This document shows, one piece after another, positions 3,928 to 31,994 of a DNA stretch of 37,614 bases. Both the position numbers and the translations under genes were made by a program. Source of the DNA: Natronococcus amylolyticus DSM 10524. Its GTDB lineage: Archaea; Halobacteriota; Halobacteria; Halobacteriales; Natrialbaceae. The notes under the pieces are model-generated. The model made no database searches. It was not told the DNA's origin and worked only from the letters and a program-made list of their open reading frames with translations. Where the stretch lies: the NCBI RefSeq assembly GCF_000337675.1, contig NZ_AOIB01000002.1, positions 8,387 to 46,000 on the forward strand, read 5' to 3'. Positions within the stretch are counted from its first letter, which is position 1; the number at the start of each line of letters is the position of its first letter.

Positions 3928-6390
3928 ATGGAGTATCACGAGGCGGCGGAGTTCCTGTTCGGGCTCCGTCGGTTCCGTCCAAAACCGGGGACGGAGTCGA
4001 CGGCCCGGCTGCTCGCCCACCTCGAGGACCCCCAGGAGGGCGTCGAGTTCGTCCAGATTGCGGGGTCGAACGGGAAGGGAAGCACGGCGCGGATGGTCGA
4101 GCGAACGCTGCGGGAGGCGGGGCTGTCGGTCGGTCTCTACACCTCGCCCCACCTCGAGGACCTGCGCGAACGCATCCGGGTCGACGGGCGGAAGATCCCG
4201 AAGTCGTCGGTGTCCGCCTTCGTTGCGGAGATTCGCGAGCACGTCACCGAGCGGGCCGCCGACGGGGAGTCGCCGACGTTCTTCGAGGTACTGACCGCGA
4301 TGGCGATTCAGGAGTTCGACCGGGCCGACGTCGACGTCGCCGTCCTCGAGGTCGGGATCGGCGGGCGCTACGACGCCACGAGCGTCGTCGACCCGGTCGC
4401 GAGCGCGGTGACGAGCGTCACGCTCGAGCACACGGGGATTCTCGGCGACACCGAGGCCGAAATCGCCCGCGATAAGGCCCACGTCACGCCCGCCGACGCG
4501 CCGCTCGTTACCGGCGCCTCCGGCGAGGCTCTCGAGGGCGTCCGCGAGGTCGCCGGCGAGGTCGTCACCGTGGGGTTCGACGGCGAGGACGACCGCCAGC
4601 CGGACGTCCGCGTCGCCTACGAGGGTCGGGTGAACCACACCGAGGCGGCCGTCTCGATCGACGACGGCAGCCCGCTCGAGGCCCGAATTCCACTCCTCGG
4701 GCGCCACCAGGCCGAGAACGCGGGGATCGCGGCGACGGTGGCCCGGCAGGTGGCCGATGTCTCCGACGCCGACCTCCAGCGGGGGCTGCGAAACGCCCAC
4801 TGGCCGGGTCGGTTCGAGGTGCTCGAGACCGAGCCGCTGGTCGTCCTCGACGGCGCGCACAACCCGGGCGCCTGCGAGGGCCTGGCCGAGACGCTCTCGA
4901 GCTACGAGTACGACGATCTCACACTCGTTGCCGGCGTGATGCACGACAAGGACGTCACGGGGATCGCCGACGCGTTGCCGACCCCCGACGCCGTCGTCGC
5001 GACCGAACCGGGCCTCGAGCGCGCCGAGGACCCCGACGCCCTCTCGACGGTGTTCGAACGGACCGGCGTCTCCGACGTTCGGACGATCCCGGACGTCCGG
5101 GACGCCCTCGAGGCCGCGATCGCCGAGAGCGGCGCCGACGACTGTGTACTCGTGACCGGGTCGCTGTTCGCGGTCGCCGAGGCGCGCTCGCGGTGGACCT
5201 CGCTGCAGGTCCCCAAGCGGGTTCGTGACATCGATGACGCCCGCGAGGCACTCTCGAGTGCGGACGCGACCGAGAGCGACGTCGCCGACGCAGCGGGCTC
5301 GGCTATCCACCGAGTCGTCAAAACGTCGCTCCGGTACAGACAGGCGACGGCCTTCCGGGAGGAGCTGCTTCGGATCGGCGGCGAGTGTACCCTCTCGGGG
5401 CTCCGGCGGAACGACGAGCGGATCGACGCCGTCCTCTCGGGGACGCTCGAGCAGTTCACGCGCCTCGTCGACCGGCTCGCGGAGCGCTCGGACGGACTGG
5501 CCGCGGTCGGGCGGGAACTCGAGTCGACGCTCGAGTTGAGCGGCGAGGCACAGTCGGGAGGCGGCGACGACCCGTCGCCTCCTTGGACGGACGGGACCGC
5601 CGTCATGGGGATCCTCAACGTCACCCCCGACAGTTTCCACGACGGCGGGGAGTTCGACGCGCTCGAGGACGCCGTCGCCCGCGCGGAGGCGATGATCGAG
5701 GCCGGCGCCGACGTGATCGACGTCGGCGGCGAGTCGACGCGACCGGGCGCCGACCCCGTCTCGGTCGAAACCGAGATCGATCGGGTCGTCCCCGTCCTCG
5801 AGGCGATCGGCGACCTCGACGCCCTGCTGTCGATCGACACGCGGAAGGCGGCCGTCGCCGACGCGGCCCTCGAGGCGGGCGCCGACATCGTCAACGACGT
5901 CTCCGGGCTCGAGGATCCCGAGATGCGCTTCGTCGTCGCCGACCACGACGCGAGCCTGATCGTGATGCACAGCGTCGACGCGCCCGTCATTCCGGATCGG
6001 GAGGTCGAGTACGACGACGTCGTCGAGGACGTGATCGACCAGCTCCGCGAACGGATCCTGCTGGCCGAGAAGGCGGGCCTCGAGCGCGAGGACGTCATCG
6101 TCGACCCCGGGATCGGGTTCGCCAAGTCGGCCCCCGAGAGCTTCGAGCTGCTCGACCGGCTCGCGGAGTTCCGTGCGCTTGGCTGTCCAGTCCTCTTCGG
6201 CCACTCGCACAAGTCGATGTTCGCACACATCGGCTGCGAGTCCGGCGAGCGCCTCGAGCCGACCGTCGCGGCGAGCGCGCTCGCGGCCGACCGCGGTGCC
6301 GACCTCGTCAGGGTTCACGACGTCCCCGAGAACGTCGCCGCGGTTCGAACGGCGCTCGCGGCGCGCGATCCCGACCGCTTCGAGCCGTAG
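3928..6390 (+). CDS. folCP: Bifunctional folylpolyglutamate/dihydrofolate synthase-dihydropteroate synthase (FolC-FolP fusion)
   Basis: An 820-residue fusion covering two steps of folate synthesis. The N-terminal part (about 1-420) is a Mur-ligase-like FolC that adds glutamate to (dihydro)pteroate or folate using ATP. It shows the P-loop GSNGKGST (46-53), EVGIGGRYDAT (141-151) and DGAHNPGA (308-315). The C-terminal part (about 557-820) is dihydropteroate synthase, which condenses p-aminobenzoate with the pterin pyrophosphate. It shows GILNVTPDSF (561-570), DVGGESTRPG (598-607), SIDTRK (635-640) and a RVHD motif near the end. The usual SRKS loop reads SHKS, keeping the catalytic lysine. Residues about 421-556 form a linker region with no assigned domain. 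This fusion is known in halophilic archaea (hdrC of Haloferax). No dihydrofolate reductase gene is adjacent. Start: ATG at 3928, 66 bases after the previous stop. Confidence 0.93.
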   Translation: MEYHEAAEFLFGLRRFRPKPGTESTARLLAHLEDPQEGVEFVQIAGSNGKGSTARMVERTLREAGLSVGLYTSPHLEDLRERIRVDGRKIPKSSVSAFVAEIREHVTERAADGESPTFFEVLTAMAIQEFDRADVDVAVLEVGIGGRYDATSVVDPVASAVTSVTLEHTGILGDTEAEIARDKAHVTPADAPLVTGASGEALEGVREVAGEVVTVGFDGEDDRQPDVRVAYEGRVNHTEAAVSIDDGSPLEARIPLLGRHQAENAGIAATVARQVADVSDADLQRGLRNAHWPGRFEVLETEPLVVLDGAHNPGACEGLAETLSSYEYDDLTLVAGVMHDKDVTGIADALPTPDAVVATEPGLERAEDPDALSTVFERTGVSDVRTIPDVRDALEAAIAESGADDCVLVTGSLFAVAEARSRWTSLQVPKRVRDIDDAREALSSADATESDVADAAGSAIHRVVKTSLRYRQATAFREELLRIGGECTLSGLRRNDERIDAVLSGTLEQFTRLVDRLAERSDGLAAVGRELESTLELSGEAQSGGGDDPSPPWTDGTAVMGILNVTPDSFHDGGEFDALEDAVARAEAMIEAGADVIDVGGESTRPGADPVSVETEIDRVVPVLEAIGDLDALLSIDTRKAAVADAALEAGADIVNDVSGLEDPEMRFVVADHDASLIVMHSVDAPVIPDREVEYDDVVEDVIDQLRERILLAEKAGLEREDVIVDPGIGFAKSAPESFELLDRLAEFRALGCPVLFGHSHKSMFAHIGCESGERLEPTVAASALAADRGADLVRVHDVPENVAAVRTALAARDPDRFEP

Positions 6391-19699: not shown

Positions 19700-19830
19700 G
19701 GTCGACGTCCGTCCCTCGCGACGAAGCGCCACACCGTCCCGTTCGCTTCCCGAGCACGGCCACGGACCCGGTTCCGATCGTTCCCGGTGGGTCCGAAGCC
19801 GCCGCTACCGGATCTTTTCGTCACGACAGC

Positions 19831-19837
19831 TTTACAA
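19831..19837 (+). promoter_or_regulatory. TATA-like box for the HdrA/MvhD-like gene
   Basis: TTTACAA is centred about 28 bases before the ATG at 19862. This decides in favour of 19862 over the longer in-frame start at 19787. Confidence 0.5.
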
Positions 19838-19861
19838 CCGTGCCATCGCTACCTGTTCGCG

Positions 19862-21994
19862 ATGAATGAGGGCGCGTTTGTCTGTTCCTGCGCCGGGACT
19901 TGCGACATCGATCTCGAGGAGGCCAGGGAAGGGATCGAGGACGTCGAGGTCGCCGCGAGCTCGCAGCTGCTCTGCCAGGACAAGCTCGAGGCGTTCGAGC
20001 AGGTAATCGAGGAGTACGAACTCGACGAGATGATCGTCACCTGTCCCGAGGCCAAGGCCCAGGAGAAGATCGAGGCCGCGGCCGAGCGACAGGGGCTCCG
20101 GCCGGACGACGTCGAGTTCGTCGACCAGCGGGAGGGGGCGGGGTGGGTTCACGACCGCGAGGCCGCGACCGCCAAGACCGCGCGGCTGGTCAACGCGGCG
20201 AACGCTGGCCGCGAAACCGAGCGGCGCCCCCGATCGAGCATCCACCGGGCCGGCTACGACGTCGTAGTCGTCGGCGATCCGAACGCGGCCGCGGCGATCG
20301 CGGACGCCGCGGACGTGACGCTGCTCGCGGACGGCGAGGAGCTGGCGACGGCCGACGCCGACCTCGAGAACGTCGACGTCGAGCGGGGTCGCGTCGTCGA
20401 CGTCGACGGCAAGTACGGCGAGTTCGAGCTGACGGTCGAGGCGCTCGTCACCGACGACTGCGTCTCCTGTATGAAGTGCGTCCACGAGGGACCCGACGGG
20501 ATGGTCACCCGCTACCCGGTCGACATCGATCCCGAGGCTCCGGTCGGCGAGTGGGTGACGGTCTGTCCGACCGACGCCATCGAGATGGAGGGCGTCGAGC
20601 GGACGATCGAGTGCGATCAGGTGATCCACCCCGGCGGAGAGGGGCCGGTCGGCGGCCAGCGCGGCTATCACACCAAGTTCGACCCGGCGACGGTCAACGA
20701 GGTCGAACGCCTGCTCGGCGGGTTCGAGGGGATCGACTTCCTCGACCTCGAGATGGAGGTCTGTGCCGCCGGGACGGCCGGCGAGATGGGCTGTAACGAG
20801 TGCGTCGAGGCCTGTCCCCACGACGCCGTCGAGCGGGCCGCGATCGACGAGGTCGAGTTCCACCTCGACAGCTGCCAGAACTGCGGCGCCTGTACCAGCG
20901 CCTGTCCGACCGGCGCGACCCGGCTCCAGGAGCCGAACAACGAGCGCCTCGCCCGCGAGGTCGAGGCGCTACTGGCCCCGACGGGCGACGACGGCGGGTT
21001 CGTCAGCGGACTGCTCGGGGGCTCGAGCGCGAACATCGAGACGCCGATGATCGCGTTCGTCTGTTCGGAGCGCGCACAGAACGCGCTTCGGGAGTACGGC
21101 CGCCTGGCGGCCGCGGGACGCGCCGACGTCGAGTACCCGCCGATCCTCCCGGTCTCGGTCAACTGCGCCGACACCGTCGGCGAGGCCCACGTCCTCCACG
21201 CGCTGGCGGCCGGCGCCGACGGCGTCGCGATCGTCGGCTGCGGCGGGAGCTGTCTCCACTCCGGCCCGGATCCGAAAGCCGAGCTCGTCGAGCGGGTCAA
21301 CCGAGCGACGGCCGATCTGGGACTGGGCGAGCGAGTCTCCTTCTTCGCGCCCGACCCGGACGAGCCCGAGGCGTTCGTCGAGGAGGTCTCCCAGTTTGCC
21401 GTCGCGGAGCTCGAGGCGTCGCCGATCCCCGCCGGCGAGCACGAGGCGGACGGCGGGATCGACGACCCCGAACGGGAGAACCCGCCGTTCGACAACCACG
21501 GCTGGACCCTCGAGAGCGTCCGCGCGATCCTCGAGCATGTCGAGCCCGAGCGGGAGGTGATCCGCGGGCTGAAGGACTTCGGGATCGTCGAGGTCGCGGA
21601 GGGCTGTACGCTGACGCCGACCTGTACGAGCTACTGTCCGACCGACGCACTCCGGCGCACCGAAAACGGCCTCGACTTCAACCACGAGCGCTGTGTCAAC
21701 TGCGGGCTCTGCGAGGAGGTCTGTGTCGAGAACGTCATGAGCGTCGAGGACGGGCTCGACCTGTCGCTGCTGCCGGAGAACAAGCCGGAGGAGCCGGATC
21801 CCGCCTGGGAGCGGGTGTACGAGGGGTCGATGCTGTCGTGTGCCGGCTGCGGAAAGCAGTTCACGAGCGAGGCGACAGCCGACGCGATCGAGGACCGTAT
21901 CGGCGACGTCGTCGCCGACCTCGCCCCCGACTCCGAGGAGAGCATCTTCCAGTACTGTCCGGAGTGCCGAGCGCGGCTGCTTCACGACGTCTAA
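19862..21994 (+). CDS. HdrA/MvhD-like multi-cluster iron-sulfur electron-transfer protein
   Basis: A 710-residue soluble protein with many cysteines. In order: an HdrA-like N-terminus (CSCAGTC, 8-14; C38; C61); a short remnant of a dinucleotide-binding region (VVVVGDPNAAAAIA, about 134-147) without the Gly-x-Gly-x-x-Gly loop; ferredoxin-like clusters at C200/203/206 with C235P, at C311/314/318P, and at C338/341/344/348P; an MvhD-like domain (about 396-497) with C401, C435, C460 and C464; a final ferredoxin pair (C582/588/592P and C611/614/617/621); and a zinc-ribbon-like tail (C660/663, C699/702). HdrA and MvhD carry electrons between hydrogenase or formate dehydrogenase and heterodisulfide reductase in methanogens. 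Here no HdrB/C is visible, and the formate dehydrogenase operon follows 1.2 kb downstream. The start is set by the TATA-like box at 19831. The role is inferred only: electron transfer partner of the redox island. Confidence 0.8.
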   Translation: MNEGAFVCSCAGTCDIDLEEAREGIEDVEVAASSQLLCQDKLEAFEQVIEEYELDEMIVTCPEAKAQEKIEAAAERQGLRPDDVEFVDQREGAGWVHDREAATAKTARLVNAANAGRETERRPRSSIHRAGYDVVVVGDPNAAAAIADAADVTLLADGEELATADADLENVDVERGRVVDVDGKYGEFELTVEALVTDDCVSCMKCVHEGPDGMVTRYPVDIDPEAPVGEWVTVCPTDAIEMEGVERTIECDQVIHPGGEGPVGGQRGYHTKFDPATVNEVERLLGGFEGIDFLDLEMEVCAAGTAGEMGCNECVEACPHDAVERAAIDEVEFHLDSCQNCGACTSACPTGATRLQEPNNERLAREVEALLAPTGDDGGFVSGLLGGSSANIETPMIAFVCSERAQNALREYGRLAAAGRADVEYPPILPVSVNCADTVGEAHVLHALAAGADGVAIVGCGGSCLHSGPDPKAELVERVNRATADLGLGERVSFFAPDPDEPEAFVEEVSQFAVAELEASPIPAGEHEADGGIDDPERENPPFDNHGWTLESVRAILEHVEPEREVIRGLKDFGIVEVAEGCTLTPTCTSYCPTDALRRTENGLDFNHERCVNCGLCEEVCVENVMSVEDGLDLSLLPENKPEEPDPAWERVYEGSMLSCAGCGKQFTSEATADAIEDRIGDVVADLAPDSEESIFQYCPECRARLLHDV

Positions 21995-22133: not shown

Positions 22134-22862
22134 CTACTCCGGATGTTCGATCGTCCAGTCGGCCTTCTCGGCGGCCGTCGCGAGCGGAACGAACTCCCAG
22201 CCGGCGTCATCGGCGATCCACTCCTCGTCGCTGCAGCCGACGACGACGGTCCGATCGGCGTAGAACATCGAGTCGGGCGTGACGTCCGCGAGGCGCTCGG
22301 CCGGACCGGTCTCGGAACCGCCGAAGAAGTCGAGTTCGATCCGCTCGTCGCGCTGGAACTTCCGGATCGCCGGTGTCGACACCGTGCCGACGATTCCGAT
22401 CCAGTCCGCCCACCCCCTGGCGTCGCCGACCACGAACTGTGGATCCTCGAGCCGGTTGATCGCCTGGTAGGTAAAGGCGAGGGTCATGTCGTCGGCCGCC
22501 GTCGCCTCCCCGTGGTCGGTCGTTCGGGACGTGGAGCCGGCCGACGTCGACTCGTCCGTCCTCGATTCGGTCTCCGACTCCGCGTCCGAGCTCCTGCCGG
22601 CGCCACCGCCGCCGCGATTCTCCGGAACGCCGACCGGCCCCTCCGTCGCCCCCGGCACCTGGGGGACGCGACGGGACGGCTCGCCGTCGCTATCGGACTC
22701 GCCGTCGGCCACCCCTTCGGCAGACGCGTCGCTCCAGACGGGGTCCGACTCCTCGTCCGGATCGCCCTCGCCCCGCCAGAGCCAGTCGCCGTGGTTGGTG
22801 GTCTCGCCGTCGTCCTCGTCCTCGCCGACGTCCATGTCGTCGAGGTCGATGCTGTCGGTCAT
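22134..22862 (-). CDS. Haloarchaeal hypothetical protein with acidic linker and C-terminal conserved domain (DUF7124-like)
   Basis: A 242-residue protein. Residues 1-125 are acidic and low in complexity. Residues about 126-242 form a compact domain starting MTLAFTYQAINRL and containing RKFQRDERIELDFFGG (167-182) and TVVVGCSDEEWIADDAGWEFVPL. This resembles a domain found in many haloarchaeal hypothetical proteins; I recall it as DUF7124 but cannot confirm the number. The start at 22862 overlaps the stop of a short upstream frame by four bases (ATGA). It sits on the minus strand between the HdrA/MvhD-like gene and the formate dehydrogenase, and its function is unknown. Confidence 0.65.
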   Translation of the reverse strand: MTDSIDLDDMDVGEDEDDGETTNHGDWLWRGEGDPDEESDPVWSDASAEGVADGESDSDGEPSRRVPQVPGATEGPVGVPENRGGGGAGRSSDAESETESRTDESTSAGSTSRTTDHGEATAADDMTLAFTYQAINRLEDPQFVVGDARGWADWIGIVGTVSTPAIRKFQRDERIELDFFGGSETGPAERLADVTPDSMFYADRTVVVGCSDEEWIADDAGWEFVPLATAAEKADWTIEHPE

Positions 22863-23005
22863 CGGCGACCGACGACCTCCTCGAGCCGGCTCCTTCCGGT
22901 TGCGGCTGCTGCCCTTACCCGCGGACGCACGGATCGCCGTTCGGGGCGTGCCGCGGTCGGAACGCGTCGCGACCGGCCGATCGGTGCCGTCCTCGTCGTG
23001 GTCAT
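22859..23005 (-). CDS. Possible 48-residue basic small protein
   Basis: This short frame (MTTTRTAPIGRSRRVPTAAR... ending LEEVVGRR) has an ATG at 23005 with a TTTAAT box about 28 bases before it, and a TGA that overlaps the next gene's ATG by four bases. It is very rich in arginine, unlike the acidic proteins of this organism, which argues either for nucleic-acid or membrane contact or for a non-selected leader. No homologue is recognised. Confidence 0.35.
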   Translation of the reverse strand: MTTTRTAPIGRSRRVPTAARPERRSVRPRVRAAAATGRSRLEEVVGRR

Positions 23006-23030
23006 CGTCTGTACTTCGCGCTGTAGTCGG

Positions 23031-23036
23031 ATTAAA
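23031..23036 (-). promoter_or_regulatory. TATA-like box for the 48-residue ORF and downstream gene
   Basis: TTTAAT on the minus strand lies about 28 bases before the ATG at 23005. No such box is seen 27 bases before the larger gene's own start at 22862, so the transcript probably begins at the small ORF. The rest of the divergent gap to 23174 holds the AT-rich run near 23085-23125 and the formate dehydrogenase promoter. Confidence 0.4.
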
Positions 23037-23144
23037 TGCCACGGTGTCGTCGCTGCTGTCAAGGGGTTGAACGGACGGCCACCTATTAAACGATCTAATG
23101 GAATCCGTCTAACAAAAACGCCGAATCAGTTCGGACCCAAAGGA

Positions 23145-23174: not shown

Positions 23175-26147
23175 ATGTCTCGGTCATCACTCGACCTTGA
23201 TCGGCGAGGGTTCCTGAAAGCCGGCGCCGGCGGAACCCTCGCGGCTGCGGTCGGGGGACGAACACTGCTTCAACAGCGCGCCGCCGCCGACGAAGACGAC
23301 GTCGTCGACCCCGAGGCGGGGGACGAACTGGTAAAGACCGTCTGTACGCACTGTTCGGTCGGCTGTGGGATACAGATGTCCGTCGAGGAGGACGCAGTCG
23401 TCGGCCAGGAAACCTGGGAGGACAGCCCGGTCAATCAGGGCGGACTCTGTTCGAAGGGGGCGTCGCTAACCCAGTCGGTCAACTCCGAACAGCGCCTGAA
23501 GAAGCCGTTGAAGCTCGAGGGCGGCGAGTGGACCCAGATGGAGTGGGACGAGATCCTCGAGGAGATCACGGGCCGACTCGACGACATCCGCGAGGAGACC
23601 GGTCCCCACTCGACGATGTGGGTGGGATCGGCCAAACACAGCAACGAGGCCGCCTACCTGATTCGGAAGCTGGCCGCGTTCTACGGAACGAACAACATCG
23701 ACCACCAGGCGCGGATCTGTCACTCGACGACCGTCGAGGGGATCGCGAACGTCTGGGGCGTCGGCGCCATGACGAACAACTCGAACGACATGCGCAACGT
23801 CGACGTCAACCTCATCATCGGGCACAACCCGATCGAGAGCCACCCCGTCGCCTGGCAGTACTTCCAGGAGGCCCAGGAACGGGGCGGCAAACACATCGTC
23901 GCCGAGCCACGGTACACCAAGACCGCGGCCGCGTCCGACGACTTCTACCAGTTCCGTTCGGGCACCGACGTCGCCTTTATTTACGGCCTGATCTACCACA
24001 TCGTCGAGAACCTCGAGGCCCACGACGAGGAGTTCATCGAGAGCCGCGTGATGGTCGATACCTGGGAGGAGTTCCGCGACGACGTCCTCCCCGAGTACGA
24101 CCTCGAGACCGTCGCCGACATCTGTGGCATCTCCGAGGAGGAGCTGATGGAGCTCGCCGAGGAGCTCGCGGACGCGGAGGTCAGCTGCGTCGAGTGGGCG
24201 ATGGGCGGCACCCAGCACAACAACGCGACGGGGAACGTCCGCGCCTACGCGATGCTCAACCTGGCGCTCGGCCACGCCGCCCAGTCCGGCGGCGGCACCC
24301 CGATCTTCCGGGGCCACGACAACGTCCAGGGCGCGACCGACCTCGGCGTCGACTCGAGTACGCTGCCCGGCTACTACGGGCTGGACGAGGACGCCTGGGA
24401 ACACTGGGCCAACGTCTGGACCCAGACCCAGAGCACCTCCGGCGAGGTCAGCTACGACGACCTCCACAACCGGTTCCACGACACCGAGCTGATGGAGAAG
24501 AACGGGTTTACCGTGGCCCGCTGGTACGAGGGCGTCCTCGACGACGAGTGGGAGATCTACCAGCCCGACCCCCTTCGCGCGGCGATCTTCTGGGGGCACG
24601 GGCTCGCCTCGCTCACCGAGTACAAGAAGGTCAAGCGGGCGGTCAACGAGCTCGACTTCATCGTCAACGTCGACGTCTTCCCGAACCAGGTCGCCGAGCT
24701 CGCCGAGGACGACACCGACGTCTACATGCTGCCGGTCTGTACGAACGTCGAGGAGGCCGGCAGCGTCACCAACACCGGCCGACAGGTCCAGTGGCGTTCG
24801 CAGGCGATCGAACCTCGTCACGACTCCCGGACGGACTGGGAGCTGATGTGTGACTTCGCCGAGCGACTCGGCTTCGGCGAGCACTTCGACTACGACGAGG
24901 TCGAGGACGTCACCCGGGAGTGGAACCTCGGGACGCGCTCGGTCGGCTACGTCGGCCAGACACCGGAGCGACTCAAGGCCCACCAGCAGAACTCCGAGGT
25001 GTTCAGCGCCGAGGACATCCAGGCCGAGGTCGACGAGGACCACGAGCTTCACGGGGAGTACTACGGACTCCCGTGGCCGTGCTGGCACGAGGACCATCCC
25101 GGAACACCCATCCTCTACGACGACTCGCTGCACCCCTCCGAGGGCGGGATGGACTTCCGGGCGAACTGGTGGGACGAGGACGACCCCGACGTCGATCCCG
25201 AGGATCAGCTCCGGGATCCGTACGAGCCCGACTGGTGGGACGGCGAGATCGAGGGCGTGCCCCAGTACCCGATGTTCTCGACGGTGCTTCCCGACCCCGA
25301 GAACCCCGCCGCGGCGACGATCCCGATCGAGGGCGCGTTCGACGAGGACACCTCGGTCGCCGACGTCGCCCAGCAGCTCGACGACGAGGGGTACGACGTC
25401 GAACTCGACATCTACGAGGAGTTCGACAACCCCCAGCCCGACGCCCCGTGGGGCCGCGGTCGGGCCCGGATGAAGGCCTGGAACCTCACCGACGAGATCC
25501 CGGTCCACCGCGAACCCGCGGTGACGCCCCGGCCCGACCTCGTCGAGGACTTCCCGTGTAACGAACGCGTCGAGGACCACTGGCGCGTCGAACTCGACAA
25601 CGCCGGCGTCCAGCAGGACAACATCGACGCCATCGACGAACTCGTCGAGGTCGGCGACGTCGACCCGCTAGTGCTCACCTCGGGTCGACAGGTCGAGCAC
25701 AAGGGCGCGGGCGCGGTAACCCGCAGTACGAAAGGAACCGCCTCACGGGCCCCGATGATGTATCTCGAGATCCATCCGGACGTCGCAGCCGAGATCGACG
25801 TCGAGGAGGGCGACTGGATCGTCGTCACGACGCCACACGCCGAGATGCTCGTCCAGGCCAGGCCGACCGGACGGGTCGCATCCGACCACGCGTTTGCCCC
25901 CTATCACTGGAGCGGTATCCTCGAGGGCGAGCGAGTTATGGATAGCGTCCCCAACGGGATGGAACCGCTGGTGATCGGCGAGTCGATCAACTGCGGCACG
26001 GCGCCGGCCTACGACCGCGAGACCCAAATGCAAGAGACCAAGACGACGCTGTGTAACATCAGGGTCGCCAACGACGACGAGATCCCCGAGCTGTCGGATC
26101 GACAGATCAGGTGGCAGGAACAGCGCATGGATCGGAACAAGCGATAG
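23175..26147 (+). CDS. fdnG: Formate dehydrogenase catalytic subunit, FdnG type, Tat-exported
   Basis: The 990-residue molybdopterin oxidoreductase oxidises formate to CO2. A Tat signal (DRRGFLKAG, 9-17, then a hydrophobic stretch) means it is folded inside and exported. A [4Fe-4S] cluster is bound by C57, C60, C64 and C92, and K94 next to it is the electron-relay lysine of formate dehydrogenases. The active-site motif RICHSTTV (180-187) has C182 where E. coli FdnG has selenocysteine, followed by the catalytic H183. Further FdnG-like blocks are GAMTNNSNDMRN (197-208), EPRYTKTAA, and LPWPCW with HPGTP downstream. The C-terminal domain (about 840-970) is the molydopterin-dinucleotide fold. It is followed 10 bases later by its ferredoxin subunit and then by NrfD. 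Molybdenum or tungsten is equally possible. Confidence 0.92.
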   Translation: MSRSSLDLDRRGFLKAGAGGTLAAAVGGRTLLQQRAAADEDDVVDPEAGDELVKTVCTHCSVGCGIQMSVEEDAVVGQETWEDSPVNQGGLCSKGASLTQSVNSEQRLKKPLKLEGGEWTQMEWDEILEEITGRLDDIREETGPHSTMWVGSAKHSNEAAYLIRKLAAFYGTNNIDHQARICHSTTVEGIANVWGVGAMTNNSNDMRNVDVNLIIGHNPIESHPVAWQYFQEAQERGGKHIVAEPRYTKTAAASDDFYQFRSGTDVAFIYGLIYHIVENLEAHDEEFIESRVMVDTWEEFRDDVLPEYDLETVADICGISEEELMELAEELADAEVSCVEWAMGGTQHNNATGNVRAYAMLNLALGHAAQSGGGTPIFRGHDNVQGATDLGVDSSTLPGYYGLDEDAWEHWANVWTQTQSTSGEVSYDDLHNRFHDTELMEKNGFTVARWYEGVLDDEWEIYQPDPLRAAIFWGHGLASLTEYKKVKRAVNELDFIVNVDVFPNQVAELAEDDTDVYMLPVCTNVEEAGSVTNTGRQVQWRSQAIEPRHDSRTDWELMCDFAERLGFGEHFDYDEVEDVTREWNLGTRSVGYVGQTPERLKAHQQNSEVFSAEDIQAEVDEDHELHGEYYGLPWPCWHEDHPGTPILYDDSLHPSEGGMDFRANWWDEDDPDVDPEDQLRDPYEPDWWDGEIEGVPQYPMFSTVLPDPENPAAATIPIEGAFDEDTSVADVAQQLDDEGYDVELDIYEEFDNPQPDAPWGRGRARMKAWNLTDEIPVHREPAVTPRPDLVEDFPCNERVEDHWRVELDNAGVQQDNIDAIDELVEVGDVDPLVLTSGRQVEHKGAGAVTRSTKGTASRAPMMYLEIHPDVAAEIDVEEGDWIVVTTPHAEMLVQARPTGRVASDHAFAPYHWSGILEGERVMDSVPNGMEPLVIGESINCGTAPAYDRETQMQETKTTLCNIRVANDDEIPELSDRQIRWQEQRMDRNKR

Positions 26148-26157
26148 GTGAGATCAA

Positions 26158-26760
26158 ATGAGTACACAAGAATCTAACAGCGGACCGGCACGAGTCATCC
26201 CGAACTGGGAGTCATGTATCGACTGCGGGGCCTGCGAGGTCGCCTGTCAGCGGACCTGGGATCTCCCCCCGGAGAGCGACCGAATCCAGGTCGTCGCGCT
26301 CGGCCACGGGACCGAAGAGGAGGCAAACAAGCCGATGCAGTGTTACAACTGCGTCGAGGCACCCTGCGTCGAGGTCTGTCCGACCGACGCGTTGCGCATC
26401 CGGGACAGCGGCAGCGTCCGCGTCAAAGCCGACATGTGTATCGGCTGTCACTACTGCGGCGTCGGCTGTCCGTTCGGCGCACCGCAGTACCCGGACGCCG
26501 AGGTTCCCAATGCCGAGGAGGCCGAGCCGATGGGATCCCGAAGCGGCGGCCTGATGGACAAATGTACGACCTGCGAGCCGCGCCAGGAGGAGGGGCTCGA
26601 GCCCGCCTGCTCCTCGGAGTGTCCGACCGACGCCTTGCTGTTTGGCACGCCCGAGCAGCTCTCCGAGAAGCTCGACGAGGACGGCGTTTCGACGCCGTTC
26701 AGCGACGAGGCCGCCGAGATCGTCTTCGGCGAGGACGCGGACGAGATCATGGGGGACTAA
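26158..26760 (+). CDS. Four-cluster ferredoxin subunit of formate dehydrogenase
   Basis: A 200-residue electron-transfer subunit of the FdnH/PsrB/NrfC family. Four [4Fe-4S] binding sets are visible: CIDCGACEVAC near residue 20; CYNCVEAPCVEVCP near 62; CIGCHYCGVGCP near 94; and CTTCEPRQ with CSSECP near 138-156. It lacks the C-terminal membrane helix of FdnH and has no signal peptide, so it probably rides out with the Tat-exported catalytic subunit and is held by the NrfD protein. It starts 10 bases after the fdnG stop and ends six bases before NrfD, consistent with one operon. Confidence 0.93.
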   Translation: MSTQESNSGPARVIPNWESCIDCGACEVACQRTWDLPPESDRIQVVALGHGTEEEANKPMQCYNCVEAPCVEVCPTDALRIRDSGSVRVKADMCIGCHYCGVGCPFGAPQYPDAEVPNAEEAEPMGSRSGGLMDKCTTCEPRQEEGLEPACSSECPTDALLFGTPEQLSEKLDEDGVSTPFSDEAAEIVFGEDADEIMGD

Positions 26761-26766
26761 CCGCCG

Positions 26767-27882
26767 ATGGCAACCGAAGTCACGTTCGACCTGCCGTACT
26801 CCCAATGGAACTGGCAGATCGGCGTCTACATCGCGATGATCGGGATCGCCAGCGGGGCGTACCTGATGGGGTACGTCGCCGACCTCCTGGGCTCGCGGCG
26901 AGATGCCCACGGGCACGGCCAGGTCGCGAAGTACGGCTACCTGGTCGGACTACTCGGGCTGGTAATCGGGCCGCCGATCCTGCTGTCACACCTCGCGACG
27001 CCGTTCCGAGCGATGTTGATCCCGCTGACGATGACGAACTTCGACTCGTGGATGACCATCGGTGCGTACCTGCTCGGCGGACTCGGGCTGGGTGCGTTCC
27101 TGATGTTCGTCTGGGTCGCGTTCGGACGGAATCGACCGCACGCACCCGATCGAGCCGAGCGAGCCGACTCCGGCGCAGTCGCCGCCGACGGCGGAACCGA
27201 GCGCGACGCCGCCAGGGCCGCGACCACCGACAGGACCGACGGACTGCGCGGCGTCGCCGACCGCGTCGGACTGCTCGATCTCGTCGACTCGCTCGCCGAC
27301 ACGACCCGTCCCTCGGAGACGGTTCGGCTCGCGCTTGGCGGCGTGTTCTCGATCGCCGCGGCCGGCGTCCTGATCTACTCGGCGATGGCCTACGGCTCCG
27401 GAATGACCGAGCGGGTCGCACTGTGGGACAAGACGTTCCTGCTCCCGGTCCAGATCTTCAGCGGTCTCGGCGTGGGACTGGCCGGAGCGGTCGGGCTGGC
27501 GGCGGTGGCTGGCCGAAATCCCGGCCGTGCGGTTCGGCAGTACTCGCTTGTGACTGCCGGGCTGCTGGCGGCGACGCTGGCGATGGTCGTCGCGACGATC
27601 GTCCTGTTGCCCGAGCAGAGTCCCGCAGCGGAGGCGGGGATCAATAACCTGCTCACCACCTACGCCGTTCCGTTCGTCGGTCTCGCCGTGATCGGCGGGC
27701 TGGTCGTGCCGATCCTGCTGTCGGTCGGCGCGGTCGTCGGCCAGCGACGCGACGCGCTCTCGCCGACAGCGGCGACGGCGACGTACGCTACCATTGCGCT
27801 CCTCGCGGTCGTCGGCAAGATCGCGCTGGCGTTGAGCTACCTGCTCGCCGCCGAGTTCGAGCCGCTCATCCTTCCGCTGTAG
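26767..27882 (+). CDS. nrfD: NrfD/PsrC family membrane anchor of formate dehydrogenase
   Basis: A 371-residue integral membrane protein with about eight to ten spans, belonging to the NrfD/PsrC quinol-interacting family. The opening WNWQIGVYIAMIGIASGAYLMG and HLATPFRAMLIPLTMTNFDSWMTIG are typical of the family. A hydrophilic, charged loop near residues 120-175 is longer than usual. It would pass electrons from the ferredoxin subunit to menaquinone. It replaces the cytochrome b FdnI of the bacterial enzyme. It has no heme-ligand pattern that I can see. The gene starts six bases after the ferredoxin stop. Confidence 0.88.
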   Translation: MATEVTFDLPYSQWNWQIGVYIAMIGIASGAYLMGYVADLLGSRRDAHGHGQVAKYGYLVGLLGLVIGPPILLSHLATPFRAMLIPLTMTNFDSWMTIGAYLLGGLGLGAFLMFVWVAFGRNRPHAPDRAERADSGAVAADGGTERDAARAATTDRTDGLRGVADRVGLLDLVDSLADTTRPSETVRLALGGVFSIAAAGVLIYSAMAYGSGMTERVALWDKTFLLPVQIFSGLGVGLAGAVGLAAVAGRNPGRAVRQYSLVTAGLLAATLAMVVATIVLLPEQSPAAEAGINNLLTTYAVPFVGLAVIGGLVVPILLSVGAVVGQRRDALSPTAATATYATIALLAVVGKIALALSYLLAAEFEPLILPL

Positions 27883-27931: not shown

Positions 27932-28567
27932 ATGACACGGACCAGCGACCCCACGAGCGAACTCGCGGATCTGTACGCGTTCCTCTCGGGCGTTCTCGCG
28001 GATCCACCCGACGAGACGGCCGTCGAACGGCTCAGCGCCGAACAGCTGCCGCGGCAGGCGTCGCCCCAGGCGCTCGACACGGGCTACCAGCTGCTCGACA
28101 AGTGGCGAGCCAGAGTCGACGACCCCGAGGCGGAGGCGGCCGAGCTGAATCGGGTCCACACCCGACTGTTCGTCGGACCGCGTCCGCGGATGCAGATTCA
28201 CGAGTCCTGGTACGCCGACGACTACCTCGGCGAACCGCTCGCGGCCGTCAAGAGTTCCTACCGCGACCTCGGCATTCGGCCGTCGACGGAGCTCCGCGAG
28301 GAAGCCGACCACGCCGCCGTCGAACTCGCCGCCCTCGAGATCCTGGCCCGTGGAGGCAACGACGAGTACCGACGGGCTTTCCTGCAGGCCCACGGCTGGT
28401 GGCTGCGGGAGCTGGCCCGCGACATCCAAGAGATGACCGACAACCCCTTCTACGAGGGCGTCGGCTGGCTGCTCGAGGGAGTCTTCCAGGCCGACACCTA
28501 CCTGCTTGGCCTCGACCCCGACGACCTCTCGCCGGGCTACGGACAGCTCTCCGCGAACGGCGAGTAG
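27932..28567 (+). CDS. TorD/DmsD-family molybdoenzyme chaperone
   Basis: A 211-residue, all-helical cytosolic protein. Family marks are the central EEADHAAVELAALEIL, corresponding to the E-x-D-H motif of TorD-like proteins, and the preceding LFVGPRPRMQIHESWY loop. Such chaperones bind the Tat signal and help load the metal cofactor before export. Position directly after the formate dehydrogenase genes makes FdnG the likely client. It converges on the AOR-like gene, whose stop is 59 bases away. Confidence 0.88.
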   Translation: MTRTSDPTSELADLYAFLSGVLADPPDETAVERLSAEQLPRQASPQALDTGYQLLDKWRARVDDPEAEAAELNRVHTRLFVGPRPRMQIHESWYADDYLGEPLAAVKSSYRDLGIRPSTELREEADHAAVELAALEILARGGNDEYRRAFLQAHGWWLRELARDIQEMTDNPFYEGVGWLLEGVFQADTYLLGLDPDDLSPGYGQLSANGE

Positions 28568-28626: not shown

Positions 28627-30366
28627 CTACAGTCCCTCGAGGTCGAGTCGCTCGAGGGTTCGGTCGGTCGGGACGCCGTCGTCCCACCCCCGGCGCTCGT
28701 AGTACCGCTCGAGGGTCTCCTCGAAGCCGGCCGCGTCGATCGCCGCGCCGTCGTTGGGACCGCCCTCGAGCGGCTCCGTGAGCCGCTGTGGAAGCGTGTC
28801 GTCCTCGCGGGTAAATCCCTCGCGACAGTTGAACAGCCGGATCAGCGTCCAGATGCGCTCGCCGACCCGACGCAGCTCCTCGGGCTCGTACTCGCGGTCG
28901 ACGGCCGCGAGCCAGTCGGCACCCAGCGTCGCCGAGAGCGCCTCGCCGAAGAAGTCGTCGGCGATCAGGCTCCAGAGCACGGCGCGGCGGTCCTGCTCGG
29001 CGATCACCCTGTTAACCTGATCGACGGCGCTCCAGTCGGTGCCGCCCAGCGCCTCGACCTCCACCGGTCGTGCGCGGCGGTGGCAGGCGCCCCGATCACT
29101 GGTCGCGTAGGCAAGCGCCATCGCGGACGCACCGCGGGGGTCGTAGGCCGGCAGCGCCATCCCCTTCACCGAGGGGATCAGGTCGTCGCCGCCGTACTCG
29201 GCCGCGGCCGCGTCGACACCGTCGGCGAGCGTCTCGCCCAGCGGGCTCGAGCGGTGGGTAATCTCCTCGATCAACTCGCGGGCGCCCTCCTCGTCGCCGA
29301 ACTCGAGGTCGCGGTCGATCAGCCCCTCCTGGCTCGCGCGGATCGCCCAGGCGACGGCGTTGCCCCCCGAGATGACGTCGAGTGCGAGCCGATCGCAGAC
29401 CGAGCCAAGGGTGGCGACAGCGTCGAAATCGTCGATCCCCAGGCCCGCGCCCAGCGAGATCGGTGTCGATCCTCGCGGAACGCTGTCGCCGTCGTCGCTC
29501 TCGACCTGGAACCCGCCCGGCACCGGCTCGTCGGCTCGCTCGCGGTCGTGGGCGGCGTCGCGGACGGCCTCGATCCCGATCCCGTCGGCGCCGTCGAACC
29601 GGCCCTCCTGCCAGCCGCGGGTCGGCAGGACGCCGACCTCGTTCGCGAAGTCAAGCGTCTCGACGGTCTCGCTGGCGGCCTGCCAGCGGCCCGTGTCGTC
29701 GGTTGCAAAGGCCTCCTCGTACCGCCGGTGGAGTTCACGGAGGTCCGCGTCGAGTTCCGGTGGGTCGTCGCGGGCGACCAGCGCCTTCAGTCGCTTCGCG
29801 CCCATCACCGCGCCCGCACCACCCCGGCCGGCGTGGTGGTCGCCGCCGTCGGAGGCGATCGTCGCGTAGGAGACGCCGTTCTCGCCTGCGGGACCGATGC
29901 AGGCGACCGCGGCCTCGCCCGCTCGCTCGTCGGTCTCGCGGGCGTCGAGCCCCCACCAGTCCTCGGCCGGCTCGATGGAGACCTCGCCACCGTCGATCTC
30001 GAGTCTGACGGGGCGGTCCGCCCGACCGGTGACGAGGATCCCGACGTGGTCCTCGAGCGAGCCCGCGAGCCGATCGGCCATCGAGCCGCCCGCGTAGGAG
30101 TCGAGAAAGGCCCCGGTCAGCGGCGATTTGGTGATGACGACGGAACGTTGCTCGCCTGGCAGGAGACCGGTTAGTGGGCCGGTGAGAAACAGCAGGACGT
30201 TGTCGTCGCCCAGCGGGTCCGTCCCCGGCTCGAGCTCCTCGTAGAGGTAGCGGGCGCCGAGTCCCTTCCCGCCGACGTACTTTCGGCGCCACGACTCCGG
30301 TACTGGCTCGGACGCGACGGACTCGGCCGCGAGATCGACGCGGACGAGAGTCTCCCCCGTTTCCAT
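28627..30366 (-). CDS. aor: Aldehyde ferredoxin oxidoreductase homologue lacking the [4Fe-4S] cysteines
   Basis: The 579-residue protein aligns over its whole length with tungsten AOR enzymes, which oxidise aldehydes to acids. Cofactor-contact blocks are kept: SVVITKSPLTG (75-85), AGRGGAGAVMGAKRLKA (179-195), GLGIDDFDA (308-316), LPAYDPRGA (405-413) and RGACHRRA (425-432) with the conserved H429. But the C-x2-C-x3-C ligands expected near residues 276-288 are absent (here RADEPVPGGFQV), and the fourth ligand, expected near 466-471, reads SLIADD. The glutamate of the usual GPEYE block is also missing (RGSTPI, 298-303). The protein has only four cysteines, at 156, 324, 428 and 514. It may still bind tungstopterin but cannot carry a standard cluster. 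The start is ATG 30366, with a TTTAACTAT-like box about 30 bases before it. It is read after yqeC. Confidence 0.85.
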   Translation of the reverse strand: METGETLVRVDLAAESVASEPVPESWRRKYVGGKGLGARYLYEELEPGTDPLGDDNVLLFLTGPLTGLLPGEQRSVVITKSPLTGAFLDSYAGGSMADRLAGSLEDHVGILVTGRADRPVRLEIDGGEVSIEPAEDWWGLDARETDERAGEAAVACIGPAGENGVSYATIASDGGDHHAGRGGAGAVMGAKRLKALVARDDPPELDADLRELHRRYEEAFATDDTGRWQAASETVETLDFANEVGVLPTRGWQEGRFDGADGIGIEAVRDAAHDRERADEPVPGGFQVESDDGDSVPRGSTPISLGAGLGIDDFDAVATLGSVCDRLALDVISGGNAVAWAIRASQEGLIDRDLEFGDEEGARELIEEITHRSSPLGETLADGVDAAAAEYGGDDLIPSVKGMALPAYDPRGASAMALAYATSDRGACHRRARPVEVEALGGTDWSAVDQVNRVIAEQDRRAVLWSLIADDFFGEALSATLGADWLAAVDREYEPEELRRVGERIWTLIRLFNCREGFTREDDTLPQRLTEPLEGGPNDGAAIDAAGFEETLERYYERRGWDDGVPTDRTLERLDLEGL

Positions 30367-30435: not shown

Positions 30436-30517
30436 ATACTGTCTGCTGTAAGTCATTTCCGGTGGGACCGCAGGACGGATCGCGGTCCCACCGGTAACTC
30501 GTTACAGCAAACCGTAT
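30436..30517. repeat. 82-bp nested palindromic element between yqeC and aor
   Basis: Outer arms 30436-30451 and 30502-30517 match as inverted repeats at 14 of 16 positions (ATACTGTCTGCTGTAA against ATACGGTTTGCTGTAA). After seven-base spacers on each side comes a perfect 13-bp inner inverted repeat, CCGGTGGGACCGC (30459-30471) and GCGGTCCCACCGG (30482-30494), around a 10-base loop. The right edge touches the yqeC stop codon. It could be a MITE-like or palindromic repeat element, or a terminator/processing hairpin after yqeC. No clear target duplication is seen. Confidence 0.7.
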
Positions 30518-31242
30518 CAGACGACGTCGACGACCCGATCCTCGAGCAACTGCGCGAGAACGACCCGGGGTACGTCCCGTCGCTCACGGATCTCGCCGGC
30601 GATCTCGCGGGCCGTCTCCTCGAGTTCGGGGGTGTCGACCATGTTCACGAGCGGGATCACCGTCGCGCCGTCGGGCACGTCCTTGCAGCCGCCTCGGTCG
30701 CTCGTCACGACGGCCGCGACGTCGCTCGCCGAGATCCGATCGCCGGGCTCGAGGTCGGTAATCGCTGCGACCCGCTCGGGGCGGTGAACGTGCTCCTCGG
30801 CGAGTCGCTCGCCGACGATCTTCGCGCTCGCGATGGGGACGACGACGTCGGTCGCGGTCGGCAGCTGCGGCTCGTCGTCGTTCGGCGCCTTGAACCAGCG
30901 GGTGCGGGCGCCGTCGGCCTTGACGACCACCGACGTCTCCGGTCCGAGATCGGCCACGAAGTCGTCGACCGTCTCGGGATCGTAGCCGAGGTAGCGGTCC
31001 GATCCTTCGCGGCCGGCGACGAGACCGATCGGCCACGACTCGGCCGAGTCGATCGCCTCGAGCGGGCGATCCGTGACGATCACGTCCTCGACCTGCTCCT
31101 CGAACGGCGGGATGCGAACGGTGGCGGTGACGACCGCGCGCTCGAGTCGGTCCGCGAGCGCGTACAGCGTCGACTTCTTGCCGCCCGCGCCGACAACGCA
31201 GGTGACGTTACCGCGAGCGGTCAGCGCCTCGGGAAGATCCAT
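30517..31242 (-). CDS. yqeC: YqeC family molybdo/seleno-enzyme accessory protein
   Basis: A 241-residue P-loop-containing protein. GAGGKKST (near residues 18-25) is the phosphate-binding loop. The middle shows VVVKADGARTRWFKAPNDDEP, and VVPIASAKIVGERL follows; both are characteristic of the YqeC family linked to selenium-dependent or molybdenum hydroxylase maturation. The exact reaction is unknown. It lies upstream of the AOR-like gene on the same strand and beside the formate dehydrogenase cluster, which supports a cofactor role. The start is ATG at 31242; the stop touches the palindromic element. Confidence 0.85.
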   Translation of the reverse strand: MDLPEALTARGNVTCVVGAGGKKSTLYALADRLERAVVTATVRIPPFEEQVEDVIVTDRPLEAIDSAESWPIGLVAGREGSDRYLGYDPETVDDFVADLGPETSVVVKADGARTRWFKAPNDDEPQLPTATDVVVPIASAKIVGERLAEEHVHRPERVAAITDLEPGDRISASDVAAVVTSDRGGCKDVPDGATVIPLVNMVDTPELEETAREIAGEIRERRDVPRVVLAQLLEDRVVDVV

Positions 31243-31379: not shown

Positions 31380-31994
31380 TCAGTCGTCGTCATCATCGTC
31401 GTCGTCGTCCTCATCATCATCGTCGTCGTCGTCATCGTCGTCGTCGTCATCGTCGTCGTCCTCATCATCATCGTCATCGTCCTCATCATCATCGTCGTCC
31501 GCTTCGTCCTCCTCGTCTTCCTCGTCGTCATCATCATCCGCCTCGTCGTCGTCTTCGTCGTCATCCGCTTCATCGTCATCGCCGTCGTCAGTCGCCGATT
31601 CGTTCCCGTCGGTTTCGTTGTCGGCCGTCTCGTTGCCGTCGGCCCCGTCGTCGGTTTCGTTCCCGTCGTCCTCGAGCTCGTCCCAGTCGATTTCTTCCGT
31701 CTCGTTGTCGCCGTTACCGCCTCCCTCGTCCTCGAGGTCGTCGTCTTCGTCATCCTCGGCCTCGTCGTCCGAATCGGTGGCGTCGATCATCTCGGCGGGA
31801 TCGTCCTCGAGCCCCGGCAGGTCCTCGGTCTCCGCGTCCGTCTCGGCGCTCGAGGTGTCGCCGCTGACTCCGAGCCCGAGGGTAACGCCGGCGATCGTCA
31901 TCCCGAAGACGACGAGGACGGCGACCGTCGTGACGAGCAGCGCGCCGACGGATCCCCCGTCCGGCTCCCGGTCGTACCCGCGCGTTCCCGACAT
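31380..31994 (-). CDS. Membrane-anchored protein with poly-aspartate C-terminus
   Basis: The 204-residue protein starts with a short cytosolic segment, followed by one membrane helix (about 16-44, LLVTTVAVLVVFGMTIAG). Beyond this it is an acidic extracellular-type tail. Five N-x-S/T glycosylation sequons (NET at 97, 112, 121, 126; NES at 131) lie in the middle. The last 39 residues (166-204) are only Asp with three Glu, without interruption. No catalytic domain is present. The gene is preceded on the minus strand by a TTAACAATAC box about 31 bases upstream of ATG 31994. Possible roles are surface charge or cation (Ca/Mg) binding; this is inference. In other frames the same DNA reads as poly-Ser or poly-Val/Ile, which are shadows. 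Confidence 0.65.
   Translation of the reverse strand: MSGTRGYDREPDGGSVGALLVTTVAVLVVFGMTIAGVTLGLGVSGDTSSAETDAETEDLPGLEDDPAEMIDATDSDDEAEDDEDDDLEDEGGGNGDNETEEIDWDELEDDGNETDDGADGNETADNETDGNESATDDGDDDEADDDEDDDEADDDDDEEDEEDEADDDDDEDDDDDDEDDDDDDDDDDDDDDDDEDDDDDDDDD
31383..31499. repeat. Imperfect trinucleotide repeat (GTC/ATC) encoding the poly-Asp tail
   Basis: Thirty-nine consecutive triplets of GTC or ATC, with three CTC, fill this stretch on the plus strand (GAC/GAT/GAG on the coding strand). A looser version with interruptions continues to about 31575. Such a tract can change length by slipped replication and is also hard to sequence or assemble, so its exact length is uncertain. Confidence 0.85.

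Follow-up and report, generated by a model that had tools for sequence, protein, structure and literature searches.

Tungsten aldehyde:ferredoxin oxidoreductases (AORs) hold a [4Fe-4S] cluster through four cysteines, which are C288, C291, C295, and C494 in the Pyrococcus enzyme (1AOR). In this enzyme, the cluster is the electron exit, E313 is the catalytic Glu and H448 the active-site His, and N93, R182, A183, and D489 are pterin contacts in the published structure; R76, D343, and a glycine-rich loop also contact the tungsten-bis-pyranopterin cofactor. A separate protein, FdhD, is a maturation factor dedicated to formate dehydrogenase (FDH) that binds bis-MGD and sulfurates it; in Methylorubrum, W-FDH and Mo-FDH both require it (PMC13197769). 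YqeC, in turn, has been named a marker of selenium-dependent molybdenum hydroxylases, as part of a set with YqeB and SelD, and Haloarcula marismortui is one such case (PMC2276186).

Here we describe AorX, an AOR-family protein that lacks the cluster ligands and is encoded in a 37,614-nucleotide stretch of Natronococcus amylolyticus DNA (the window), where aorX and yqeC adjoin a Tat-type FDH operon (catalytic, 4Fe-4S, NrfD-like, and TorD-type chaperone genes; Table 1). The uninterrupted frame of 579 codons plus stop is also open from an upstream ATG at 30456, which would give 609 aa, and many orthologs begin near Met31. Residue numbers refer to the 609-aa frame; subtracting 30 gives those of the 579-aa frame.

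By its domains and fold, AorX belongs to the AOR protein family. Its whole length is covered by Pfam AFOR_N (E 1.5e-63, 214.6 bits) and AFOR_C (E 4.7e-98, 329.3 bits), both above their curated cut-offs, and searching the PDB by sequence returned AORs (9MQX, 9Q1T [Haloferax volcanii WOR83], 1AOR, and 1B25). The structural modeling proposed in the original prediction gave an AlphaFold2 model, built from 58 window and locus sequences (mean pLDDT 86.1, pTM 0.90), in which AorX is predicted to retain the complete three-domain AOR fold: Foldseek aligned it to 1AOR, 1B25, and 9MQX with a TM-score of 0.93, an rmsd of 2.5–2.8, and 31–34% identity over the structural alignment. Confidence was lower (blocks of 59–80) at model residues 221–320, a region that includes the former cluster loop. 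Profile searches found no FdhD-NarQ domain in AorX, which is thus not of the FdhD family, and the protein has no Tat signal.

Table 1 Features of the aorX region, in window coordinates.
Feature	Position	Strand	Basis
AorX, AOR-family protein without [4Fe-4S] ligands, 579 aa	28627..30366	-	ORF and translation, Pfam, ortholog alignment, AlphaFold2 model
Lost C-x2-C-x3-C loop site (residues 305–316, RERADEPVPGGF region)	29509..29544	-	R305 and E306 invariant in AorX, F316 97%; alignments
Former GPEYE block, now VPRGS (residues 326–330)	29467..29481	-	E311 to R, E313 to A/S/G; alignment
Lost fourth-Cys site, W495-S-L-I-A-D500-D501-F502	28951..28974	-	W495, D500, D501, F502 invariant in AorX; alignments
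Retained C458-H459 of RGACH (Pyrococcus C447-H448)	29080..29085	-	100% in AorX; alignment
YqeC (TIGR03172/PF19842), upstream neighbor of AorX, same strand	30517..31242	-	Profile matches, co-occurrence
Tat-type FDH-like catalytic subunit, 990 aa, RICHS active-site motif	23175..26147	+	Profile matches, motif
4Fe-4S subunit of FDH (FDH3_beta-like)	26158..26760	+	Profile matches
NrfD-like membrane subunit	26767..27882	+	NCBIfam TIGR03148, E 1.2e-6, under its cut-off
TorD/NarJ-type chaperone (PF02613)	27932..28567	+	Profile matches
DUF7124 protein	22134..23042	-	Directly downstream of AorX, same strand, in 19 other loci
HdrA/FlpD-like polyferredoxin accompanying Tat-type FDHs	19787..21994	+	Profile matches, locus comparison
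Long Asp/Glu-rich low-complexity run, C-terminus of a small predicted protein upstream of yqeC	31380..31750	-	
FolC-dihydropteroate synthase fusion protein	3928..6390	+	

Lost cluster ligands and altered active-site residues

The original prediction held that all four [4Fe-4S] ligands had been lost, and the alignment that it called for, with AORs and haloarchaeal paralogs, bears this out. Relative to 1AOR, C288 is replaced by D309, C291 by V312, C295 by F316, and C494 by D500. Across 68 AorX sequences from throughout Halobacteria, these columns hold Asp (69%) or Glu (12%), Val (51%) or Ile (21%), Phe (97%), and Asp (100%), respectively, and none of the 68 has a Cys at any of them, while all 45 other AORs have the full set (7/7 from the sister clade described below and 38/38 others, including paralogs of the host genome). 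The GPEYE glutamate, also said to be missing, is indeed gone: E311 corresponds to R328 (Arg in 99% of the 68 sequences) and E313 to S330 (82% Ala, 12% Ser, 6% Gly), and only the His of the Glu–His active-site pair (Pyrococcus E313 and H448) is kept throughout. An assembly error in this stretch is excluded, because the same residues recur in dozens of independently sequenced genomes.

Judging from the alignments, Asp at the fourth-ligand column and Phe at the third are not plausible as replacement cluster ligands. The Asp is invariant and lies within an equally invariant W495-x4-DDF, where the sister clade has (F/Y)SMV(A/S)C(D/S)F. No conserved Cys or His occurs in the old three-Cys loop, and the Cys seen near the fourth site in a few AorX sequences (WCLI variants) falls in another, variable column and does not replace a ligand. 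In a number of orthologs (L116/L125, L117/L126, L118–L120, L123, L124, L127, and L128), this former three-Cys loop has given way to long acidic inserts of tens of residues, suggesting that it lies on the surface and is under no structural constraint.

The statement in the original prediction that the blocks contacting tungstopterin are kept holds for the motifs themselves (KSPLTG, AGRGGAGAVMGAKRLKA, DPRGA, and RGACH are all present) but not for every contact: N93, R182, A183, and D489 are replaced by Y121, H207, H208, and W495. AorX keeps R76 and D343 (Pyrococcus numbering), the glycine-rich loop, and H448, i.e., the contacts are partly kept and partly replaced, and H459, C458, and D360 are fully conserved. 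Since the N93, R182, and A183 replacements are common to AorX and its Cys-containing sister clade, they are older than the cluster loss. AorX thus shares its whole fold with the tungsten AORs but, compared with 1AOR, has neither the four-Cys [4Fe-4S] site nor E313; it has lost the electron exit and the catalytic Glu, and we infer that it would be redox inactive. With the defining cluster feature of AOR enzymes missing, it should not be named a tungsten aldehyde oxidoreductase.

Phylogeny and conservation of the AorX clade

The AorX family was recovered throughout Halobacteria when 392 genomes of this group were searched, and 62 non-redundant neighborhoods were extracted, with further sequences added later. 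In a maximum-likelihood tree of 82 sequences (quick search, support by SH-aLRT only), AorX forms one clade (SH-aLRT 100), its nearest neighbor is a Cys-containing haloarchaeal clade (L108/L177–L183; 100), and both group together (100). This sister clade resembles AorX in sequence (42–45% identity), in the replacement of N93 by Tyr and of R182 and A183 by His, and in a T(S/A)DRG(A/G)CHxRA motif; however, it keeps the four Cys and GPEYE, and no FDH, YqeC, or MobA gene was found near its members. The simplest reading of these sequences would be a single loss of the cluster ligands in AorX. When 197 genomes from across the phylum were searched, no match outside Halobacteria exceeded ~40% identity, and the 29 outside sequences inspected all have four Cys. 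Short AORs (about 575 aa) of other Halobacteriota, considered as additional Cys-less members, also have all four, and two apparent AorX fusion proteins (L053/L040, 1054 aa) carry an Arg-rich N-terminal extension unlike haloarchaeal proteins, which we interpret as an over-extended open frame. A literature search that took in few subscription papers and no preprints yielded no report of an AOR clade without the cluster, nor is such a clade mentioned in the passages found of a 2026 classification that distinguishes 92 WOR clades (PMC13328260).

Close AorX pairs displayed dN/dS ratios of 0.07–0.24, indicating purifying selection, and roughly 90 positions do not vary among 58 AorX sequences, some of these positions being unique to AorX (W495, D500, and E306). 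The orthologs and these ratios rule out a frame error as well as decay; the original prediction had argued against decay from the intact 579-codon frame alone. It had also asked whether Cys-less members form a conserved clade with the same neighbors, and both the tree and the survey of loci support a conserved clade with recurring neighbors.

Association with formate dehydrogenase genes

Overall, AorX was detected in about half of the halobacterial genomes (205/392), with presence called at E < about 1e-95, borderline cases partly checked, and presence lists compiled by hand from search tables. YqeC was found in 203 of the 205 AorX-positive genomes and in 51 of the 187 AorX-negative ones (Fisher p 5e-59, kinship ignored), and the two exceptions among the former are assemblies that are 77% and 85% complete. 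FDH matching TIGR01591 occurred in 193/205 and 85/187 genomes, respectively. When the Tat-type FDH of the window was considered as well, 11 of the other 12 AorX-positive genomes gave a match (a weak one in G089, whose assembly is 70% complete), which brings FDH to 204/205 genomes; conversely, 106 of the 109 genomes with the Tat-type FDH have AorX. AorX also co-localizes with FDH, as would be expected of a maturation factor, and an FDH catalytic subunit lies within 8 kb in 39/62 loci. The relation is one-sided: AorX nearly always comes with FDH, but not the reverse, and a need for AorX by every FDH is rejected by the 85 TIGR01591-FDH genomes without it (47 with and 38 without YqeC).

Other genes found within 8 kb of AorX were those for HdrA/FlpD-like polyferredoxin (25/62 loci), YqeC (23/62), DUF7124 (21/62), and MobA (18/62). 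The polyferredoxin was seen in loci of the Tat-type FDH, and no electron-transfer subunit accompanies AorX in all contexts. Four architectures occur among the partner FDHs: two are Tat types, one is NuoG-like and comes with NuoF, and one has 710 residues. All those checked have the R-x-C-H active-site motif, and FDH type switches at least 12 times on the AorX tree, which indicates that AorX tracks FDH in general and not one operon. Close Natronococcus relatives, for instance, have the same AorX–YqeC pair beside different FDH types. In several genomes, YqeC adjoins FDH and MobA without AorX. DUF7124 lies directly downstream of AorX in 19 of the 21 loci that have it; it was found in 39/40 halobacterial genomes tested, which rules it out as an AorX-specific partner, and its second copy is mostly associated with Tat-type FDH, often right after AorX.

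Haloarchaea appear to lack FdhD although their FDH genes are common: no halobacterial genome gave a match to TIGR00129 (55 searched) or to PF02634 (38 searched), while each profile scored in 8 of 14 control genomes. FdhD was also absent from the 15 tested genomes with FDH and no AorX. AorX can therefore be neither generally required nor the sole solution, and something else must mature the FDHs of such genomes. A selenium link through YqeC was rejected, since SelD exceeded its cut-off in only 5/55 halobacterial genomes; unlike the YqeB/YqeC/SelD set, with which it shares YqeC as a near-constant companion, the AorX–YqeC–FDH set is thus mostly selenium-independent. Several haloarchaea have two YqeC copies (e.g., G020, G035, G193, and G386), and in SelD-positive genomes with two, one adjoins SelD and the other lies elsewhere (beside AorX in G193 and G020).

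Candidate roles of AorX

Given its genetic association with formate dehydrogenase and the cofactor genes, AorX probably contributes to the assembly of this enzyme rather than oxidizing aldehydes. We propose, with a probability of about 50%, that AorX is an AOR-type protein disabled for redox chemistry and recruited as an FDH cofactor-maturation factor that acts with YqeC and MobA. The former AOR cavity would bind a Mo/W-bis-pterin cofactor or one of its intermediates, and the three proteins may hold or modify the cofactor or hand it, presumably in this direction, to apo-FDH, the step served by AorX possibly being insertion, dinucleotide handling, or sulfuration. The original prediction had offered another electron acceptor, a non-redox tungsten reaction, or cofactor handling or storage, the last from the position next to yqeC; of these, cofactor handling fits the neighborhood best, but the context is defined by FDH (plus MobA), with YqeC as a near-obligatory companion. 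The proposed role resembles that of FdhD, although the two proteins are unrelated in sequence. It is conceivable, if rather doubtful, that in haloarchaea, which seem to have no FdhD, AorX arose from an AOR-type oxidoreductase that lost its cluster and catalytic Glu and now carries the bis-pterin cofactor to FDH, with YqeC and MobA, and so replaces some or all of the FdhD role for the FDHs that it accompanies.

Several observations weigh against a maturation factor: the replaced pterin contacts, the FDH genomes without AorX, the occurrence of YqeC beside FDH and MobA without it, and a yqeC deletion in C. difficile with no clear phenotype (PMC11448449). In addition, neighborhood alone would look alike for a maturation factor and for an enzyme acting in that pathway, and AorX might still catalyze a non-redox reaction on pterin-bound tungsten, or pass electrons directly to a soluble acceptor or a partner, as part of formate or C1 metabolism. 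The AOR fold, the conserved H459, C458, and D360, and the location by FDH and polyferredoxin genes would suit such an enzyme, yet we consider it unlikely given the loss of E313 and all cluster ligands and the want of an electron-transfer subunit beyond the HdrA/FlpD-like protein of Tat-type loci. Storage or buffering of the Mo/W pterin cofactor (or metal), serving FDH as well as other molybdoenzymes and involving no transfer step of its own, would agree with the retained fold and the association with YqeC and MobA, but a general store should not follow FDH as closely as AorX does, which makes this quite improbable.

If AorX were a subunit of FDH complexes, with a structural or regulatory role, this could likewise explain why aorX and fdhA often lie no more than a few hundred bases apart and why the AorX paralogs of G152, G240, and G374 each lie beside an FDH. 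Such a subunit, lacking a Tat signal, would however have to serve both Tat-exported and cytoplasmic NuoG-type FDHs, and in window-type loci aorX and fdhA lie on opposite strands, so we regard this as a poor candidate. The lost catalytic and cluster residues might finally be those of a decaying or non-functional paralog hitch-hiking with a molybdenum gene island, a reading that is hardly credible as it is contradicted by the low dN/dS, the invariant positions, and the presence in 205 genomes.

Taken together, the AorX clade stands apart from every other AOR-family member sampled, all of which have the four cluster Cys. If cofactor maturation is indeed its role, a conserved cluster-less clade tracking FDH would be one of the rare metalloenzymes that have become cofactor handlers. 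AorX is a candidate answer to how haloarchaea mature FDH without FdhD, and YqeC gains a selenium-independent set of partners that is open to genetics in tractable haloarchaea.
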